Positions 792 through 12,700 of a DNA stretch of 64,000 nucleotides are shown here, piece by piece. Numbering within the stretch: the first letter of the stretch is position 1; every line of letters begins with the position of its first letter. A model generated the notes under the pieces. The model worked only from the letters and a program-made list of their open reading frames with translations. It was not told the origin of the DNA and made no database searches. Made by a program: the position numbers and the translations under genes. Origin of the DNA: Acidimicrobiaceae bacterium (GTDB lineage: Bacteria; Actinomycetota; Acidimicrobiia; Acidimicrobiales; RAAP-2); the NCBI GenBank assembly GCA_003153575.1, contig PLZW01000001.1:284548-348547 (forward strand), in the 5' to 3' direction.

Positions 792-1145
792 ATGGACGGT
801 GACTGGGCACGGCCGGTGGTCCACTGGGAGATCGTGGCCCGTGACTCCGCCGCCCAGGCCAGTTTCTACCGGCAGCTGTTCCACTGGGAGATCGCCGACG
901 GTGCCTTCATGGAAGTGCCGGCCGGCCTCGGCGGCCCCGAACCTGGACCCGGGGGCCACATCCGGACCGGTGATGAGCCCGCGGTGGTCCTGTACGTACA
1001 AGTCGGCGACCTGAGAGCCACGTTGGTCCGGGCGGGCGAGCTGGGAGGTCGGATCACCTCCGACCCCATCGACCTCCCCGACGGCCCGACCGTCGCCTTC
1101 ATCACCGACCCGGAGGGCAACGCCGTCGGCCTCGTGCAGCAGTAG
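792..1145 (+). CDS. VOC (glyoxalase/dioxygenase-fold) family protein
   Basis: A 117-residue protein with the single-module VOC pattern: an N-terminal WEI-x-ARD-S strand and helix (separate in sequence and time of the ligand), FY-x-x-LF-W, a central PAVVLYVQVGDL strand and a C-terminal FITDPEGNAVGLVQQ. Such proteins are metal-binding or antibiotic-binding dimers; the substrate cannot be told. The ATG at 792 is chosen because GGGGGA precedes it at a good distance; an in-frame start 27 bases upstream lacks this. The stop codon lies inside a 23-bp tandem duplication. Confidence 0.8.
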   Translation: MDGDWARPVVHWEIVARDSAAQASFYRQLFHWEIADGAFMEVPAGLGGPEPGPGGHIRTGDEPAVVLYVQVGDLRATLVRAGELGGRITSDPIDLPDGPTVAFITDPEGNAVGLVQQ

Positions 1146-1170
1146 GGGTCGGCCTCGTGCAGCAGTAGGG
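1125..1170. repeat. 23-bp perfect tandem duplication across a stop codon
   Basis: Bases 1125-1147 are repeated exactly at 1148-1170, and the next three bases (GTC) begin a third copy. The first copy encodes the last residues and stop of the VOC gene; the second sits between that stop and the stop of the convergent gene. The duplication does not change the VOC protein. Confidence 0.9.
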
Positions 1171-1171
1171 G

Positions 1172-1459
1172 TCAGTCCAACTCGTGGAAGCGCTTCACAC
1201 TGACGGAGTCGGGGTCGATGTGGGACCGGAACTCCCGACAGGCGTCGTCCTCGGACCGCATCTGGTCGCCGGCGTCGGCTGACGCGGGCCCGTCCCACAG
1301 GGTGAGGACCAACCAGTCGGCGTCCTCGCCGCGGGCGATGGTCCTGCGCACCAGCCCTTGCTGTCGATAGGCGAAATCCGACTGCAGCCGCTTGTCGGCG
1401 AGCAGGAACGCCACGTCGTCGGTATCGCTGCGCAACCGGAAGGACAGGGACTCGATCAC
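1172..1459 (-). CDS. Small protein resembling the dimeric alpha-beta barrel (ABM-like) fold
   Basis: A 95-residue protein starting with GTG. It has an N-terminal strand (ESLSFRLRS), a helical stretch around ADKRLQSDF, a strand DWLVLTLWDGP and a final helix and strand ending KRFHELD. This layout fits the stress-responsive / antibiotic-biosynthesis-monooxygenase type of ferredoxin-like barrel, where the second strand carries a similar LVLTLWD pattern. No catalytic residues are recognisable. It is convergent with the VOC gene and its own upstream neighbour is the transglutaminase operon end. The family assignment is tentative. Confidence 0.6.
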   Translation of the reverse strand: MIESLSFRLRSDTDDVAFLLADKRLQSDFAYRQQGLVRRTIARGEDADWLVLTLWDGPASADAGDQMRSEDDACREFRSHIDPDSVSVKRFHELD

Positions 1460-1539: not shown

Positions 1540-2421
1540 TCAGTCCGCCAGCACGTGACGGACGTCGACGGCCACGTCGAGCAGGTGTGAGTCGCCGCCC
1601 CCGAACACGATGCCCTTCAACGGCGACACGTCGGCGTAGTCCCGGCCCCAGGCGGTGGTCACGTACCCGGCGCCGACGACCTTGTCGTTGGTCGGGTCGA
1701 GGTCGAGCCAGCCCCAGCCGGGCACGAAGACCGAGAGCCAGGCGTGGGACGCGTCGGCCCCCACCAGACGCTCCTCGCCGGGAGGTGCCTCTGTCTCCAG
1801 GTAGCCGCTGACGTAGCGGGCGGCCAGGCCCATCGACCGCACGCAGCCGACGGCCAGATGGGCGAAGTCCTGGCAGACTCCCCGACGGTGGGCGAGCACC
1901 TCGTCGAGCGGAGTGGTGACCGTCGTGAAGCCGGGGTCGTAGAGGAAGTCGGCGTGGATCCGCTCCGTCAGGGCGGCCACCGCGTCGACGAGGGGCGCAC
2001 CCGGGGGGAACGACGGCTCGGCGTACTCGCGCACGATGCGAGCCGTCGACACCAGGGGCGACTCGAAGCAGAACTCCCGGGCGTCCAGCATGGCGGGGCT
2101 CAGGTCGTTGGTGAGCAGGTCGAGCGCCTCGCCCCACCCGGGCCCGACGGCGGGGAGCGGGTCGCCGTCCACGACGTCGACGGTGCTCACCGCGGTGACC
2201 GTCATTTCGGTGAACGGGCCGTCCACCACGAAGGCGGCCACCGGGTTGCCGTAGAAGTCGGACCGCTCGCTCCATCCCGTGGGTGCAGGCTCGACCACCA
2301 GGTCGCTCGCCACACACCTCTGGCGGTCCGTGTCCCGGGGCCGCAGGTGGGCCTCGTTGCGGCAGCGACTGACCGGCGCGCTGTAGTGGTAGTCGGTCCG
2401 ATGCTCGATCCGGTACCTCAC
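1540..2421 (-). CDS. Transglutaminase-like protein with bacterial N-terminal domain
   Basis: A 293-residue cytoplasmic protein: an N-terminal beta domain (RYRIEHRTDYHYSAPV) typical of bacterial transglutaminase-like proteins, then the papain-fold core. The catalytic Cys is in RGVCQDFAHL, the His in ASHAWLSVF and the Asp in LDLDPTND, so the triad is complete. It could act as a peptidase, transamidase or deamidase. Its GTG start overlaps the stop of the upstream ATP-grasp/alpha-E gene by four bases (GTGA), so it is the last gene of the four-gene operon 1540-7713. The same association is known from many bacteria and has been predicted to make or process a peptide tag. Confidence 0.92.
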   Translation of the reverse strand: MRYRIEHRTDYHYSAPVSRCRNEAHLRPRDTDRQRCVASDLVVEPAPTGWSERSDFYGNPVAAFVVDGPFTEMTVTAVSTVDVVDGDPLPAVGPGWGEALDLLTNDLSPAMLDAREFCFESPLVSTARIVREYAEPSFPPGAPLVDAVAALTERIHADFLYDPGFTTVTTPLDEVLAHRRGVCQDFAHLAVGCVRSMGLAARYVSGYLETEAPPGEERLVGADASHAWLSVFVPGWGWLDLDPTNDKVVGAGYVTTAWGRDYADVSPLKGIVFGGGDSHLLDVAVDVRHVLAD

Positions 2422-5099
2422 GACCCACCGCCGATGCTCTCGAGCTGCCCGCCGGCCAGCACCGAGAGTCTCTCATGGGCGAAGTACGTGCTCCCCAGCG
2501 ACTCCAGCAGATCGCCGAGCAGGCCGTCCGTCGTGGCGAACACCGAGTCGAGCTCCGACCGGCGGCCGGCGGCGGCGTCGACGGCCGACAGACGGTCGGG
2601 GTCGGTGAGGCGGAGGAGGGTGATGGTCTCGAGGGCCAGCCGCTCCTCGTTGCCGAGGCGCTGGGCCGAGGAGCGCTTGGGCAACTCGGCCAGGTGGGCG
2701 ACCAGCTCGTCCAGCTGGAACAGGACGCTCCTCGGGTTGGCCACGTCGTAGACCAGCAGGTCGAGGGCGCCGGCGACGTGCAGGATCGACCCGGCCCGAC
2801 GACGGAAGATCATCAAGCTCTCGGACGTCTTCAGCAGCGACTCGACGAGCAGGTCCTCGACCACGTCGGTCCGCTTCTCGACGAGCACCGACCGGAGGAG
2901 GCGCACGAGTGACCGGGCCCGCTCCAGGCGCCGACCCCCGTCGAGGAACAGCCAGGCTGAGTCGCGCTCCATGTTCTCGGAACACACCCCGGACAGGGCC
3001 AGGAGCGACCGCTGCAGGCGGAGCAGGCTGGGCTGGGCCCCCACGAACTGGGTGGGCGGTCGGCGACGGAACCGGCCGAGCTCCTCCTCGATGTCGCCCA
3101 CCAGCTGCCACGTGTCGGCCGACAGCTGCTCACGCACCGAATAGGCGGACTCGACCAGGATCCCGAGTGTCGACACCAGGCTGCCGTCCGTGCTCTCGTC
3201 GAACAGGAGGGCCAGCGCGGTGCGGTCGTGGGGCAGCACACCCTCGGCCACCGACCGGGCGGGAGCGGCGTCGCCGGGTGGGACCGGTGTGCCGACGGCA
3301 GCCGCATCGGCTGCCGGATCGAAGCCGGACGCGGCCCCGAGTGCGGCGAGCAGGACCTGGAGCGACTGGGCCCCGTCCTCGTCACCGGAACCGATCGGCT
3401 GGTCGAGGCGGGCCAGGACCGTGCGGATGAGCCGCACCACCAGCTCGGCGTGCTCGGAGCTGCGCCCGAGGGTGAACAGGCGGGCGGCCACACGGCCCGG
3501 CAGGGCCACCACCAACTCGGGCACGAGCACCGGCCGGGGCGTGGCCCGGACCGACGGGAGCCACGGGCTCTGCTGGAGTGCCGGCTCGGCCGAGGCCACC
3601 CAGGTGTCCTTACTGGTGCCGTCGCCCCGACTCGAGATGACGAGCGATCCGGTGTCGGCGCCCACCCGGGTGAGCCCTCCGGGCAGGAGGCGGAACGCAT
3701 AGGAGTCCGCCGCGTCGTCGGCCACGGCGAACGTCCGGAGGACCACTGGCCGGGGTACCAGCGTGCCGTCGTCGGCCACCGTCGGCATGGTCGACGGCAC
3801 CACGATCTCCTGGCCGACCCAGTCGCCGGGCCGGGCCCGGACCCGCTCCTGCAGTTCGTCGCGCCCGGCCCGGGTCAGCAGAGCCGGCCGGACCGGGCGG
3901 GAGCCATCGGACGGCCGGACCGGCAGGAGCAGGAGGTGGTCGAAGCCGGCCAGCACGTGGCTCAGGCCATCGGGGCGACCGCACCACCAGCTCTGCGGGC
4001 CGCGCAGGGCGAGGTCCTCGCCGAGCAGGGCGGGCGCCACGTCGGCCAGGAGTGCGGCCAGCGCCGGGCTCTCCAGGATCCCCGAGCCGAGCGGGTTGAG
4101 AACCGCCACCCGGCCGCGGCGCGCCACCTCCAGCAGGCCGGGTACGCCGAGCAGCGAGTCGGCCCGCAGTTCGACCGGGTCGCACCACCGGTCGTCCACC
4201 CGGCGGATGACGACGTCGACCGGGTCCAGCCCGGACAGCGACCGCAACCACACCCGGTTGTTCTGGACCACCAGGTCCCGGCCCTCCACAAGGGGGTAGC
4301 CCAGGTACGAGGCGAGGTAGGCGTGCTCGAAATAGGTCTCCGACAGCGGGCCCGGTGTGAGGATGACCACCCGGGGTTCGTCGGTGCCCTCGGGAGCGGC
4401 GCGGGCGACGCCGGCCCGGATGGCCCGGAAGAAACCGGCCTGACGCTCCATACCCGACGCCCGGTGCAGGGCGGGCAGGACCCGGGACAGCGCCGACCGA
4501 TTGACGAGGGCGTAGCCGAGCCCGGAGGGGGCCTGTGCCCGGTCGGCCACCGCCCGGAAGCTCCCGTCGGACTCGCGCACCACGTCGACGGCGGTCAGGA
4601 ACAGGTGGTGGGCGCCGGGTAAGGGGATGCCGGCGCAGGGGCGCAGGAACGCCGGGTGGCCGAGCACCACTTCGGCGGGCACCAGGCCCCGGGCCACCAG
4701 GGAGCGGTCGCCGTAGAGGTCGACGTTGACCAGATCGAGCAGCAGCGCCCGCTGGGCGACGGCCCGTTCGAGGCGGGCCCACTCGACGGGGTCGAGCACA
4801 AGGGGCACCGGGTCGAGCGTCCACGGGCGGCGCACGCTGCGCCCGTCCACCGCCACGTTGTAGGTGGCCCCTTCGTTGCGCAGCAGGCGGGCCAGTTCGT
4901 CGCGCCGGGAGGCCAACCCGTCAGGTCCGAACCCGTCGAGGGCCTCGGCCACCTGACGCCATCGGGCGCGGACGGACCCGTCGTCCTCCCGGAACTCGTC
5001 GGTGCACCCGGGGGGCGCGCCATACGCCGCCACCGGTGACGGGGCAGCCGTCCGGTCGTCCGACGGGCCGAGCGGGCCCACCGGTACGGCGGTGGTCAC
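2418..5099 (-). CDS. Circularly permuted ATP-grasp fused to an alpha-E domain
   Basis: An 893-residue fusion. Residues 1 to about 520 are a circularly permuted ATP-grasp module (DUF404/DUF407 type), recognisable by YNVAVDG, LTPGPLSETYFEHAYLA, IRRVDDRWCDP and a terminal SKDTWV. The remainder is an alpha-E (DUF403) helical domain beginning near LPGRVAARLFTLGR. Compared with the stand-alone ATP-grasp at 6205, the acidic LEDN stretch reads VADRAQ here and the VVKPANESGGYG stretch is replaced by a proline/arginine-rich LLPVRPSDG, so nucleotide binding may be lost. The GTG at 5099 is chosen because it overlaps the upstream stop by GTGA; further in-frame sequence upstream is a shadow of the preceding gene. 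Confidence 0.88.
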   Translation of the reverse strand: MTTAVPVGPLGPSDDRTAAPSPVAAYGAPPGCTDEFREDDGSVRARWRQVAEALDGFGPDGLASRRDELARLLRNEGATYNVAVDGRSVRRPWTLDPVPLVLDPVEWARLERAVAQRALLLDLVNVDLYGDRSLVARGLVPAEVVLGHPAFLRPCAGIPLPGAHHLFLTAVDVVRESDGSFRAVADRAQAPSGLGYALVNRSALSRVLPALHRASGMERQAGFFRAIRAGVARAAPEGTDEPRVVILTPGPLSETYFEHAYLASYLGYPLVEGRDLVVQNNRVWLRSLSGLDPVDVVIRRVDDRWCDPVELRADSLLGVPGLLEVARRGRVAVLNPLGSGILESPALAALLADVAPALLGEDLALRGPQSWWCGRPDGLSHVLAGFDHLLLLPVRPSDGSRPVRPALLTRAGRDELQERVRARPGDWVGQEIVVPSTMPTVADDGTLVPRPVVLRTFAVADDAADSYAFRLLPGGLTRVGADTGSLVISSRGDGTSKDTWVASAEPALQQSPWLPSVRATPRPVLVPELVVALPGRVAARLFTLGRSSEHAELVVRLIRTVLARLDQPIGSGDEDGAQSLQVLLAALGAASGFDPAADAAAVGTPVPPGDAAPARSVAEGVLPHDRTALALLFDESTDGSLVSTLGILVESAYSVREQLSADTWQLVGDIEEELGRFRRRPPTQFVGAQPSLLRLQRSLLALSGVCSENMERDSAWLFLDGGRRLERARSLVRLLRSVLVEKRTDVVEDLLVESLLKTSESLMIFRRRAGSILHVAGALDLLVYDVANPRSVLFQLDELVAHLAELPKRSSAQRLGNEERLALETITLLRLTDPDRLSAVDAAAGRRSELDSVFATTDGLLGDLLESLGSTYFAHERLSVLAGGQLESIGGGS

Positions 5100-6079
5100 T
5101 GGGTGGCGGTCGCCGGCTCCCAGCCGACGAAGTTCGGCCGGAAATAGGTGTCGTCCACGCGCTGGTGGATCTCCACCAGGGACAGCTGTACTTCCTCGAG
5201 GAATTCGCTCAGACCGCCGACCGTGAGTCGGGCCACTGATGCCGCGGCGACCACCATGGAGGCATTCTGGCAGGCTTCCTGGGCCCCCTCGGAGTGCGGG
5301 AGCGCCTTGAGCTGGGCCCGGGCCTCGGTCAGGCAGGCGCCCACGGCCCGGGGGAAGCGGTCGTCCTGGAGCAGGAACCGGAGGGTCGAGCCGCCCTGCG
5401 GTCGGGCCGGCATGGCCCGACGGAACGGCTGATAGGCGGCCAGCGACCGGAGTACGGCCATCCAGTGGACGACGTCGTAGGGGTCGTCGGCCCCGGGGTG
5501 GTGGAGCGAGTCCGAGCGCACGTCGAGCACCCGGGTGGTGAGGTCGGCGCGCTCGATGTTCTGGCCGAGGACCAGGAACGACATGGCCTCGTCCCGGCTC
5601 ATGGTGCCGAGCAGGATGCCGTGGATGCACTGGCACCCGGCGATGATCCGTCGCAGCCAGAGGACCCGGCCCTCCCGGGAGTGGGCCTCGTGGAGGTGGT
5701 CGTGGCTGCCGAGCCACAGGTTGTTGCAGGCCTCCCACGCCTCGCGGGGGACCACCGGCCGGGCGGTGCGGAGGTTCTCCCGGGCCGCCGTCAGCGAGGC
5801 CAGGATCGACGAGCCGTTCCCTTCGCCATGGAGGAGGAACTCGATGACGTCCTCCTCGGCCGCCCGGACGTCGTCGGGGTCCTCGGCCTCCTGGTAGCGC
5901 TCGGCGAACTCGGAGTCGACCCCGGCGATGGCGAGCAGGGGCTCCCAGCCCACGTCCTCGCCTACGGGCAAGTCGACATGGGCGTCGGTGTGGACCTGGA
6001 CGATCCTGGCCGTGCCCTCGGCCCGCTCCAGGTGCCGTCCGGCCCAGTAGACGGCTTCGGCCATGCGTGCGAGCAGCAT
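5096..6079 (-). CDS. Alpha-E domain protein (DUF403)
   Basis: A 327-residue all-helical protein that opens with the family signature MLLARMAEAVYWAGRHLERAE and continues with repeated helices (SFLVLGQNIERADLTTRVLDV). Alpha-E proteins have no proven activity; they always occur with circularly permuted ATP-grasp and transglutaminase genes and are thought to be partner or substrate-handling subunits of that system. The ATG at 6079 is preceded by AAAGGGG about eight bases upstream and places the signature at the N-terminus. A GTG at 6208 would overlap the preceding stop by four bases but add 43 uncharacteristic residues. Confidence 0.9.
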   Translation of the reverse strand: MLLARMAEAVYWAGRHLERAEGTARIVQVHTDAHVDLPVGEDVGWEPLLAIAGVDSEFAERYQEAEDPDDVRAAEEDVIEFLLHGEGNGSSILASLTAARENLRTARPVVPREAWEACNNLWLGSHDHLHEAHSREGRVLWLRRIIAGCQCIHGILLGTMSRDEAMSFLVLGQNIERADLTTRVLDVRSDSLHHPGADDPYDVVHWMAVLRSLAAYQPFRRAMPARPQGGSTLRFLLQDDRFPRAVGACLTEARAQLKALPHSEGAQEACQNASMVVAAASVARLTVGGLSEFLEEVQLSLVEIHQRVDDTYFRPNFVGWEPATATQ

Positions 6080-6204
6080 CGTGCCACCCCTTTCGTCCCG
6101 TTCCTCCGGTTCGTCCTGCTCCGCCCGGTGCTGCTGGTCGTGCCTGTCCGGCGCCGCCCCCGCGGTGTCGGTCCCCGGACCGTCGACCATGTCGACCGGG
6201 TCGC

Positions 6205-7713
6205 TCACGAGGGCTCGTCGCCCGGGGCGTCGACCACCCAGGTGTCCTTGCTGCCCCCGCCCTGGGACGAGTTGACGACCAGGGACCCTTGGCGTCGGGC
6301 CACCCTCGTCAGGCCGCCCCGGGTCACGTAGGCGCCATCGGGTCCCATGAGCGTGAACGGGCGGAGATCGACGTGTCGGGGCGCCACCGCGTCGTCGCAC
6401 AGCGTCGGGGCGGTCGAGAGCTTGATGATCGGCTGGGCCACCCACCGGTTCGGTTGGTCCTCGACCTCCTTGGCCGCGGTGGCCAGCTCCTCATCGGTGG
6501 CCTGGGAGCCCACCAGCACCCCGTAGCCGCCCGATTCGTTGGCCGGTTTGACCACGAGGTCGGCCATATTGGCCAGGACATGGGCCCGGGATGCCGGATC
6601 GCTGCAGCGGAAGGTGGGGATGGTCCAGAGGATGGGCTCCTCGTCGAGGTAGAAGCGGATGATGTCCGGGACGTAGGAGTAGACCTTCTTGTCGTCGGCG
6701 ATGCCGGCCCCGGGGGCGTTGACCAGGGCGACCCGGCCGGCCTTCCAGGCCCGCATCAGGCCGGGCACGCCGAGCATCGAGTCGGCCCGGAATACCTCGG
6801 GGTCCAAGAAGACGTCGTCGACCCGTCGGTAGATCACGTCGACCTGCTCGAGGCCGTCGATGGTGCGGGCGTAGACGCAGTCGTCGTCGAGCACGACCAG
6901 GTCGCCTCCCTCGACCAGCTCGACCCCCAGCTGCTGGGCCAGGAACGCGTGCTCGAAGTAGGCGGAGTTGTAGATGCCCGGGGTGAGCACGACGATGGTC
7001 GGGTCGCCGGTCGACGGCGACACCGAGGCCAGCGTGGCGGCCAGGCGGCCGACATAGGGGTCGACGGGTTCGATGCTGTAGTGGCGGAACATCTCGGGGA
7101 AGATGTGCTTGGTGACCATCCGGTTCTCGAGCAGGTAGGAGACCCCGGACGGCACCCGTAGGTTGTCCTCCAGCACGTACCAGATCCCCTGGTCGTCGCG
7201 GATCAGGTCGCTCCCGCAGATGTGGACCCAGATGCCCCCGGGAGGATCCACTCCGACGCACTCGCGGCGGAAGTTGGGGGAACCGCTGACCAGATCGGCC
7301 GGGACCACCCCCTCGCTCACCGCCCGCTGGTCGTGGTAGCAGTCGTCGATGAACAGGTTGAGGGCGGAGAGGCGTTGGACCAGTCCCGCCTCGATGACCT
7401 GCCACTGGTTGCGGGGGATGATCCTCGGGATGATGTCGAACGGCCACGGCCGGTCGACGCCGACCCCCTCGTCGTAGACGGTGAAGGTGACGCCGATCGC
7501 CCGGATCTCGCGGTCGGCGGCCAGCTGGCGTTCGGCCAGCGCGTCGGCTCCGAGCTCGGCGAAGTAGGTCCAGAGGGCCTCGGCCGAGGGCCGAGGGGCG
7601 CCGTCGGGCGCCACCAGCTCGTCGAAGAAGGGGGCGGGGTCGTAGGACGGCCAGGCACGCGTGCCGGCCCCGGGCCGGGCCGGCGGCGCGAGGGGGTCCA
7701 CGGGTGCATCCAC
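6205..7713 (-). CDS. Circularly permuted ATP-grasp family protein
   Basis: About 502 residues. Motifs of the active form are all visible: FDELVAPDG near the N-terminus, PFDIIPRIIP, LEDNLRVPSGVSYLLENR, TPGIYNSAYFEHAFLA, YRRVDDVFLDP, VVKPANESGGYG and a final SKDTWVVDAP. ATP-grasp enzymes join a carboxylate to an amine through an acyl phosphate; here an amide or peptide bond to an unknown substrate is the likely product. It is the first gene of the operon ending with the transglutaminase. The start is uncertain: GTG at 7713 has GGGGGA upstream, while ATG codons at 7749 and 7779 are in frame. It is divergent from the acyl carrier protein gene. Confidence 0.9.
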   Translation of the reverse strand: MDAPVDPLAPPARPGAGTRAWPSYDPAPFFDELVAPDGAPRPSAEALWTYFAELGADALAERQLAADREIRAIGVTFTVYDEGVGVDRPWPFDIIPRIIPRNQWQVIEAGLVQRLSALNLFIDDCYHDQRAVSEGVVPADLVSGSPNFRRECVGVDPPGGIWVHICGSDLIRDDQGIWYVLEDNLRVPSGVSYLLENRMVTKHIFPEMFRHYSIEPVDPYVGRLAATLASVSPSTGDPTIVVLTPGIYNSAYFEHAFLAQQLGVELVEGGDLVVLDDDCVYARTIDGLEQVDVIYRRVDDVFLDPEVFRADSMLGVPGLMRAWKAGRVALVNAPGAGIADDKKVYSYVPDIIRFYLDEEPILWTIPTFRCSDPASRAHVLANMADLVVKPANESGGYGVLVGSQATDEELATAAKEVEDQPNRWVAQPIIKLSTAPTLCDDAVAPRHVDLRPFTLMGPDGAYVTRGGLTRVARRQGSLVVNSSQGGGSKDTWVVDAPGDEPS

Positions 7714-9767: not shown

Positions 9768-12700
9768 GTGTTCCTGAAGTCCCTCTCGCTCAAAGGTTTC
9801 AAGTCATTCGCCGATCCGTCCGTGCTCGAATTCGAGCCGGGCGTGACCGTCGTCGTCGGCCCGAACGGCAGCGGCAAGTCGAATGTCGTCGACGCCGTGG
9901 CCTGGGTGCTCGGTGCCCAGGGGCCGCGCACCCTGCGGTCGTCCAAGATGGAGGACGTCATCTTCATGGGCACGGCCAACCGGCCCGCCCTGGGGCGCGC
10001 CGAGGTCTCCCTGACCATCGACAACAGTTCTGGCAAGCTCTCGGCGGACCTGGCCGAGGTGACTATCACCCGCACCCTGTTCCGCTCGGGCGACTCCGAG
10101 TACTCGATCAACGGCACCCCGTGCCGCCTCCTCGACATCCAGGAGCTGCTGTCCGACACCGGAGTGGGACGCCAGCAGCACGTCATCGTCAGCCAGGGCC
10201 ACCTCGACGCCATCCTCGAGGCCCGTCCCGAGGACCGCCGATCGGTCATCGAGGAGGCCGCCGGCGTCCTCAAATTCCGCCGGCGCCGCGAACGGGCCGA
10301 GCGCCGCCTGGCCAGCACCGAGGAGAACCTCGAGCGTCTGTTCGACCTGGTCCGTGAAGTCAAACGCCAGATCCGGCCGCTCGAGCGCCAGGCGGCCGCC
10401 GCCCGCTCCTACACGGGGCTGGCCGACGAGCTGCGGACCGTACGCCTCTTCGTTGCCGGGTCCGAGCTCGAAGCCCTCGACCGTCGGCACGCCACGGGCA
10501 CGCGACTCCAGGAGGAACAGCGGGCCAAGGAGGCCGAGCTGCAGGAGGCACTGGGCGCCCTCGACGCCGACTCGGTGCGCACGGCCGACGAACTCTCGGC
10601 CGAGCGCGAGTCCGACCTGACCGCCGCCCTCGGCCGGACCGAGGGCATGGTGGAGCGGGCCCGTGGCCTCTCGGGTGTGCTCCGGGAACGCCAGCGCTCG
10701 CTGGCCCAGGCGCTCGACGCGGCGGCCGACGCCGACGTCGTCTCCACCCTCGAGGCCGAAGGGGCCCGACTGGCCGAGGAGCTGACGGCCGCCGAGCAGG
10801 AGGCGTCCGACCTGGCCCCCGAGCAGGACGGTCTGCTGGTGGCCGAGTCGACGCTGGCCACGGAACTCGAAGCCCACCTGGCGGCCCGGGGCGACGGCTC
10901 CGAACTGCGCAGTGCCGAAGAGGCCGTCACCGTGGCCCGGGGGCAGTTGGCGTCCCTCGAGCACGCACTCGAGCGGGACCGCCGGGCCCTCGACCAGCTG
11001 GTGGCCCGCCAGGCCGGCGCCGAGCGCCGGGCCGCGATGCTGGAGGGCGAGGACCACGAACTCGGCGAGCGCCTGGCCGAGACCGAGCAGAGTCGGCACC
11101 ACCTGCAGGCGGCCCGGGCCGAGACCGAGGCCGCCCACCAGCGCGCCACCCACCATCTGGAGGTCGCCGAGGAGGCCCTGCGTCAGGCCGAACAGGAGCA
11201 CGCCCGCTCCCAGGCCCGGGCCGATGCTCTCGAGCGCGCCCTCGACGAGGCGCGGGGCGCGGCGGGCGCCGAGCTCCTGGCCGGGGTCGACGGCGTGGTC
11301 GGCACGCTGTTGGACCTGGTCGAGGTGGACAGCGGGTGGGAGGAGGCCTTCGAGGCCGCCGCCGGTGCGTCGTTGGCCGCCGTCGTCGTGTCCGGTAGCG
11401 AGCCGGCCCGTGCCGCGCTGTCGCGCCTGCGCCAGGGTGGCGCCGCCGGGGCCGTGTTGGCCCTCACCGAATCGGCCGCGTCCCGCGGTGTCAACCTGGC
11501 CGGCCCGGCCGTCCCCGGGGGCACCGAGTCGATCCGCGGCCACGTCCGGCCCCGCGCCGGCGGTCGGCACTACCCGGGCCTGGACACCGTGCTCGACACG
11601 CTGCTCCACGGCTCGTGCTGCGCCACCCGGGGCTGGTCCGACGCGATCGACCTGGCCCTGGCCCGCCCCGACCTGGTGGTGGTCACCCGCGACGGCGACC
11701 GCTTCTCACCCACCGGCTGGCGCGTCCGCGCCGGTGGCGGCGTGGTGACCGCCGCCGTGGTCGACGAATCCCGGGAGCGGGCCGAGGTGGCCCGGGCCGA
11801 GGCCGGACGGGCCGCCGAGGAGCGGACCACGGCCCGGGCCGAGGTCGAGACCACCCGTGAGGCCGCCGCCGAGGGTGTCCGGTCCGACGACCGCAACGAG
11901 GTCGCCCATCAGGCTGCACGGGTCGGACGCCAGCGGGTCTCCGGCGACCGTGACCTGCTGGCCACCGAGCTTGACGAGATCCGGCGGAACCGGGCCGAGA
12001 TCGAGGAGCGGATCGGCCGGGACGGGGCCCGGGTGGCGGAGCTGGTGGCCGGCATGCCCGAGCTCGAGCACGAGCGGTCCCTGGCCGGCGAGCGAGTGGC
12101 CGCGGCGCGCGAAGAACGTCGGCGCCTCGAGGGACTGATTGCCGATGCGGCTGCGGCCCGCAACGAATGGGAGGTCCGCACCGCCGGCCTGGTCGAACGG
12201 CGGCGGGTGCTGACCGAGCGGCTGGGCGAGGTGGAGCGCCGCCTGACCGGTCACGCCGACGAGCGCCTGCAGGCCGCGGCGCGCCGGACCCGTCTGGAGT
12301 CCGACGCCACCGCCGTCCAACGGCTCCTGGGGGTGGTGGCCGAAGCGCAGGCCGGCCTCGACTCGCTGCTGTCGTCGCTGCGGGACCGGCATCGCCGCCA
12401 GCTCGAAGCGGTGCGGGCCGGTGGTGCCCGCCTGGAGGAGCTGCGCCGCCGACGTTCGGTCAATGACCACGAACTTGCTGCCACCCGCAGCCGGCTGCAG
12501 AAGGCCGAGCTCGACCTGGTGGAGGCCACCATCCGGCGGGAGGCGGTGGTGGAGGCCCTGCGCCGGGAGCTGGGCTGCGGTCCCGAGGACGCCATCGGCG
12601 CACCCGCTCCCGAGCTACCCGAGGGAGTCGATCCGTCCGGCCGGGTGGACCAGCTCGAGTCCGAGCTGGCGGCCATCGGCCCGGTCAACCCGTTGGCCAT

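Follow-up and report, generated by a model that had tools for sequence, protein, structure and literature searches.

Escherichia coli Gss, a glutathionylspermidine synthetase/amidase, joins an ATP-grasp synthetase and a thiol amidase in one protein, and YgiC and YjfC are peptide-spermidine ligases. A gene cluster of ATP-grasp, Alpha-E, transglutaminase and Anbu genes is said to have been described by Iyer et al. in 2009. This study concerns a four-gene operon of the latter kind in a stretch of 64,000 nucleotides from an Acidimicrobiaceae bacterium (contig PLZW01000001.1, positions 284,548 to 348,547; the whole stretch is called the window). From 7713 to 1540 on the minus strand, the operon encodes a separate ATP-grasp protein (S), a separate Alpha-E protein (A), an ATP-grasp/Alpha-E fusion (F) and a transglutaminase-like cysteine enzyme (T), all with Pfam scores far over the cut-off. 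The Anbu operon has been reported on (PMC5666114, PMC6376114), and clusters of this type are widespread, their function still being treated as unproven in the literature consulted.

A preliminary description of this DNA had recognized four coupled genes of an uncharacterised ATP-grasp/Alpha-E/transglutaminase kind, and the present analysis agrees with it on these points. The operon is real, well conserved and a recurrent form of a cluster kind already known and uncharacterised, to which it belongs in the wide sense by a circularly permuted ATP-grasp with an intact site, an adjoining Alpha-E gene and a transglutaminase-like gene with Cys-His-Asp. Its new element is a conserved, predicted pseudo-ligase, F, together with the pairing of F and T.

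The two ATP-grasp copies belong to different clades. In a tree of 64 rows a single branch (support 100/100) parts S from F, in agreement with labels assigned by seed scores, and the F rows come from Actinobacteria, Alpha- and Betaproteobacteria, Campylobacterota and Verrucomicrobia; F is therefore an old paralogue and no local copy. A first motif set comprised 65 grasp domains from relatives (35 S rows and 30 F rows). All S rows retain E182, N184, R186, D340, K389, the GGxG loop and D449, while N481 and K489 are kept in 34/35, the remaining row being gapped; we take E182-D183-N184 to be Mg/ATP ligands. Among the 30 F rows E182, N184, D449 and N481 never occur, K389 occurs in 4, and R186, N249 and D340 are replaced in every row by Q, S and E, respectively. 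Pairwise alignments covered a larger set (111 S genes, 65 F genes), each gene being labelled by its better-scoring seed. In this set N184 is present in 110/110 aligned S versus 0/65 F, E182 in 110/110 aligned versus 1/65, K389 in 111/111 versus 15/58 aligned, and D449 in 108/109 aligned versus 0/56. All four of these predicted ATP/Mg residues are found together in 107/111 S and 0/65 F, and two or more of them in 111/111 S and 0/65 F. In the Alpha-E half of F both ER motifs persist in most rows, but N104, R106, N121 and D181, all retained by separate Alpha-E proteins, are mostly gone (residue numbers follow translation P0002, two residues before the ATG).

Judged by these sequence patterns, the fused ATP-grasp is predicted to be a pseudo-ATP-grasp, apparently ancient, conserved and catalytically dead. 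The preliminary description had stated that the ATP-grasp and Alpha-E functions each occur twice; this holds for the domains, whereas the ATP-grasp function is probably not duplicated, because the fused copy lacks the predicted catalytic residues. F evolves under purifying selection and retains the ATP-grasp fold, and these facts, with the strong PF14403 matches of both proteins, would suit the earlier proposal that S and F are both active and make a short peptide by two successive ligations; the absence from F of the E-x-N pair, of D449 and usually of the lysine and glycine loop makes this very unlikely. A ligase-fold enzyme of changed chemistry, acting without Mg-ATP to move or rearrange an acyl group made by S, or using other metal ligands, might instead be signalled by Q186, S249 and E340, which are conserved across phyla (30/30 each in the first set; 50, 48 and 60 of 65 in the larger one). 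Binding of a substrate without catalysis equally explains this conservation, however, and we know of no family with such altered ligase-fold chemistry, which leaves this alternative improbable.

The pairing of F with T was followed in 90 non-duplicate loci, the window's own included, and in 40 further loci from the order, half of them chosen for F and half for S (20 each). T follows F in 42/42 loci of the first survey with sequence left (two more were ended by contig ends) and in 20/20 of the further F-chosen loci. The gene after S in the first survey is A in 59 loci and T in 2; in two loci it is neither, and in one (L147) S is split into two matches. The T genes linked to F, 41 rows, group with 5 others in a single clade (support 99/96). 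These five come from loci of Acidimicrobiaceae that have S, A and T and in which F was not found; four of the five encode Alpha-E and T as a single protein. The predicted triad of T, C183/H226/D242, is retained in 66/69 (C), 68/69 (H) and 68/69 (D) homologues. Identities to a relative of the same genus (L043) are 78% for S and 79% for A versus 56% for F and 59% for T, although this coupling of S with A and of F with T is less clean in two other relatives. Four loci of related genomes (L036, L037, L041 and L044) carry an Alpha-E/T fusion in one frame of 643-692 amino acids (aa) with a separate ATP-grasp adjoining and no F found. A zinc-binding metallopeptidase gene (PF15887; 4 of the 130 neighbour proteins scanned) recurs near F-T clusters (L137, L138, L145, L100, L258, L259, L263, L265).

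F also appears to need S. Among the matches listed, S is present in 25/26 F genomes of the order, as judged from match span or by direct reading. Outside Acidimicrobiales there are 25 F loci, and the genomes were searched for 16 of them: 14 hold a full S and the other 2 just small, unread second-copy fragments. PF14403 occurs in 37/100 genomes of the window's family, and F was seen in seven of the 36 inspected. S without F is common, F without S rare.

Several gene orders were observed, including S-A-T (35/90), DUF2126-F-T (17/90) and S-A-F-T (10/90, the window counted; three of the ten have an end DUF2126 gene or a split F); S-A-DUF2126-F-T also occurs, as do clusters in which S-A is accompanied by Anbu and T. 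S-A-F-T was found again in 9/20 of the further F-chosen loci, and L260 is a tenth case with a short DUF2126-like match interposed. Given this recurrence the arrangement is not due to chance, and the window's form is a recurrent variant in its order. DUF2126 (PF09899) was not found in the operon or in its own genome (2.98 Mb, 76% complete), a Synechococcus control being positive. The S-A-DUF2126-F-T cluster of five genes in L131 lies near arsC on Enterobacter plasmid NZ_CP116251, and within the stretch shown it is bracketed by IS6-family transposase genes, one of them named IS26.

Anbu adjoins S-A-T in five loci (L149-L151, L158 and L288). The statement of the preliminary description that the window has no Anbu gene stands: none is in the operon and none was seen in the 76% complete genome, which has just two, adjacent, PF00227 genes. 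By eye, in the raw DNA, these appear to be 20S proteasome subunits, adjoined by Pup and PafA/Dop-like genes. Nor was Anbu seen in 12 related genomes, of which 11 have exactly two PF00227 genes (pairs unread individually) and one has none. These data bear on a published hypothesis (PMC6376114) of protein tagging, in which S and A would mark proteins with a tag or with amino acids, and T or a proteasome (here with Pup, elsewhere Anbu) would remove the tag or degrade the protein. The Anbu loci speak for it; the lack of any Anbu seen here or in the relatives, and a weak search that found no tag gene, make it doubtful for this operon. The search, foreseen in the preliminary description for a small substrate-peptide gene, clustered open reading frames (ORFs) of at least 50 aa at >60 bits over 36 related loci and the window; it yielded no such gene and would miss most short peptides.

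The reading we favour, with about even confidence, is that S and A form an amide ligase and F is a non-catalytic partner which couples them to T in a system that makes and breaks amides. S, with its partner A, would be an amide ligase (for peptides or amines) driven by ATP, which turns a carboxylate into an acyl phosphate and then couples it with an amine. F would go back to an early duplication of the S-A pair, having been fused into one chain and lost its ATP/Mg site, and would have been kept as a partner that holds S-A, their substrate or product, or both, and offers it to T. T could be a cysteine amidase or a transglutaminase, which trims, hydrolyses or transfers the amide. Sequence comparison establishes the gene content and coupling, the divergence of S and F, the motif losses in F, the joint inheritance of F and T, the nearly complete dependence of F on S and the purifying selection; the ligase chemistry of S, the inactivity of F, the physical contacts, the direction of T and the role in nitrogen shortage are inferred from these and other clues. 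The system is plausible because Gss, with ligase and thiol amidase in one protein, provides a precedent. The ligase assignment draws on motifs, on the fold that S shares with glutathione and glutathionylspermidine synthetases, and on the phosphate released by the ATP-grasp protein of the Yersinia bercovieri Anbu operon (PMC6376114). A bolder version, in which F typifies a so far unrecognised class of obligate, inactive pseudo-ligase that reads an amide conjugate written by S-A and passes it to T as eraser, in many phyla and tied to nitrogen shortage, is tentative and rather more doubtful.

The most likely use of such a system would be under nitrogen shortage, which is the best clue to physiology. 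Clusters of this kind are strongly induced or NtrC-dependent under nitrogen shortage in P. putida and B. cenocepacia, and metagenomes are reported to show them correlated with urea genes (PMC3597751); the window's operon may behave alike by analogy with these Proteobacteria. No nitrogen-response data on such clusters in Actinobacteria were found in the literature, and gene neighbourhood provides no more than a hint. In two loci of one genus (L149, at 10090-12123, and L150) S-A-Anbu-T is immediately preceded, on the same strand, by a GlnR-like regulator gene and glnA.

A number of observations weigh against the favoured reading. One genome (G545, 89% complete) has F and no S seen, its F lying 2.5 kb from a contig end. 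F retains D169 (64/65), K389 (15/58 aligned) and K489 (30/54 aligned), and also R451 and D490, so some F proteins may still bind nucleotide. An hhalign comparison places the LEDN segment of S on D318/E330/N332 of E. coli Gss without significance. Partners of Anbu were sought among its operon proteins without success, Anbu being the bait and contacts among S, A and T falling outside that experiment (PMC6376114). Concerning nitrogen, the main text of an M. smegmatis nitrogen transcriptome study does not mention transglutaminase, ATP-grasp or DUF40, and nitrogen genes lie near 5/130 loci (L140, L141, L149, L150, L258), with ~3/125 expected by a rough estimate that assumes five nitrogen loci per 3.5 Mb.

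A small secondary-metabolite cluster for a peptide-like natural product, as Cp1B for E-64, is a further and very improbable alternative. Families for tailoring, transport or resistance do not recur strongly next to the core genes: among the families listed the commonest Pfam family has 5 members (130/293 listed neighbour proteins). Conservation across phyla and nitrogen control in two Proteobacteria also speak against it. Models of anti-phage defence (PADLOC) gave 0 families for the four operon proteins at E 0.01.

The coordinates of the operon are collected in Table 1. The GTGA overlaps noted in the preliminary description are present at A/F and F/T; one exists at S/A as well (6208-6205), the A frame staying open up to a GTG at 6208, but the most likely A start is the ATG at 6079, preceded by a purine-rich stretch, which would leave a gap of 125 nt between S and A. 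S starts with GTG at 7713, a possible alternative start lying upstream, as far as 7779. The model of A is all-helical (pLDDT 79.2).

Table 1. Features of the S-A-F-T operon and of its predicted ATP-grasp sites (window coordinates).
Feature	Position	Strand	Evidence
S: separate circularly permuted type 2 ATP-grasp, 502 aa	6205..7713	(-)	PF14403 537.6 bits; 3n6x E 8e-151
A: separate Alpha-E protein, 327 aa	5096..6079	(-)	PF04168 251.3 bits
F: ATP-grasp + Alpha-E fusion, 893 aa	2418..5099	(-)	PF14403 434.9, PF04168 193.5 bits
T: transglutaminase-like cysteine enzyme, 293 aa	1540..2421	(-)	PF08379 + PF01841
GTGA overlap, A stop / F start	5096..5099	(-)	sequence
GTGA overlap, F stop / T start	2418..2421	(-)	sequence
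S E182-D183-N184 (LEDN), predicted Mg/ATP ligands	7162..7170	(-)	E182, N184 kept in 110/110 aligned S
S K389-G398 (KPANESGGYG), predicted ATP lysine + glycine-rich loop	6520..6549	(-)	K389 in 111/111 S
F A185-D186-R187 at position of S E-D-N	4539..4547	(-)	motif-column alignment

The flanks of the operon look ordinary: on one side an acyl carrier protein gene (Pfam/NCBIfam scan) with rnc, mutM and smc (assigned by eye), on the other small, unrelated genes. A stretch of about 23 bases, GACCCCTACTGCTGCACGAGGCC, is repeated head to tail (window 1128-1175, by eye) where two convergent small genes meet downstream of T, and a minus-strand ORF of 95 aa (1172-1459), also downstream of T, has no Pfam/NCBIfam match at E 0.001. 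Two of the genome's nearest named relatives, all of them metagenome genomes of Acidimicrobiaceae or Acidimicrobiales, have an isolate name that includes "bog". Among other loci, L052 (G070:C102) has a second, strongly divergent S-clade ATP-grasp on a long branch with no Alpha-E match adjoining; in L042, a locus with no F found, the reading frame of S shifts close to the end of the gene, L066 has F divided between two frames, and L067 yielded only part of S, possibly by assembly error or decay. Relatives of S with 44-50% identity occur in phage-named records (MT835738, CAKLQH020000004, CAKLQF020000002), which may be mislabelled bacterial DNA.

A description of F as inactive was not found in the literature searched, although the founding 2009 paper, which was not covered, may contain one. 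The division into a putative catalytic pair, S-A, and a pseudo-ligase/transglutaminase pair, F-T, guides functional tests of the cluster, as it indicates which proteins to combine, which of them should require ATP, and nitrogen shortage as the growth condition to choose.

Comparison with known systems places the operon as follows. The rlo operon of P. aeruginosa likewise has an ATP-grasp protein and a transglutaminase-type domain but of other families, namely a RimK-like ATP-grasp, a membrane-bound inactive transglutaminase and a secreted aspartic protease (PMC12239564). At the sequence level only CP_ATPgrasp models match the ligases well, and no assignment to glutathione or lysine enzymes emerged, the outcome that the preliminary description had named as refuting it: in a Pfam scan to E 10 CP_ATPgrasp was strong, ATPgrasp_YheCD and ATPgrasp_ST were weak, and the GSP_synth and GSH synthetase models gave no match. 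With Gss, YgiC and YjfC the operon shares the ATP-grasp fold and a similar-looking pattern of D...ExN and K...G motifs, and its pairing of a ligase with a cysteine enzyme resembles that in Gss; however, there is no significant sequence match to Gss, whose amidase is CHAP (Pfam scan) rather than transglutaminase-like, and Alpha-E and the pseudo-ligase have no counterpart in these proteins. The Anbu cluster likewise has circularly permuted ATP-grasp, Alpha-E and transglutaminase-like genes in a tight operon, whereas the window's operon is without Anbu, has the extra fused pseudo-ATP-grasp/Alpha-E gene, and has its T in the F-linked clade, outside the groups found beside S-A. Compared with S-A-DUF2126-F-T of the Enterobacter roggenkampii plasmid, it is without the DUF2126 amidoligase/transglutaminase gene and shares the order S, A, F, T.
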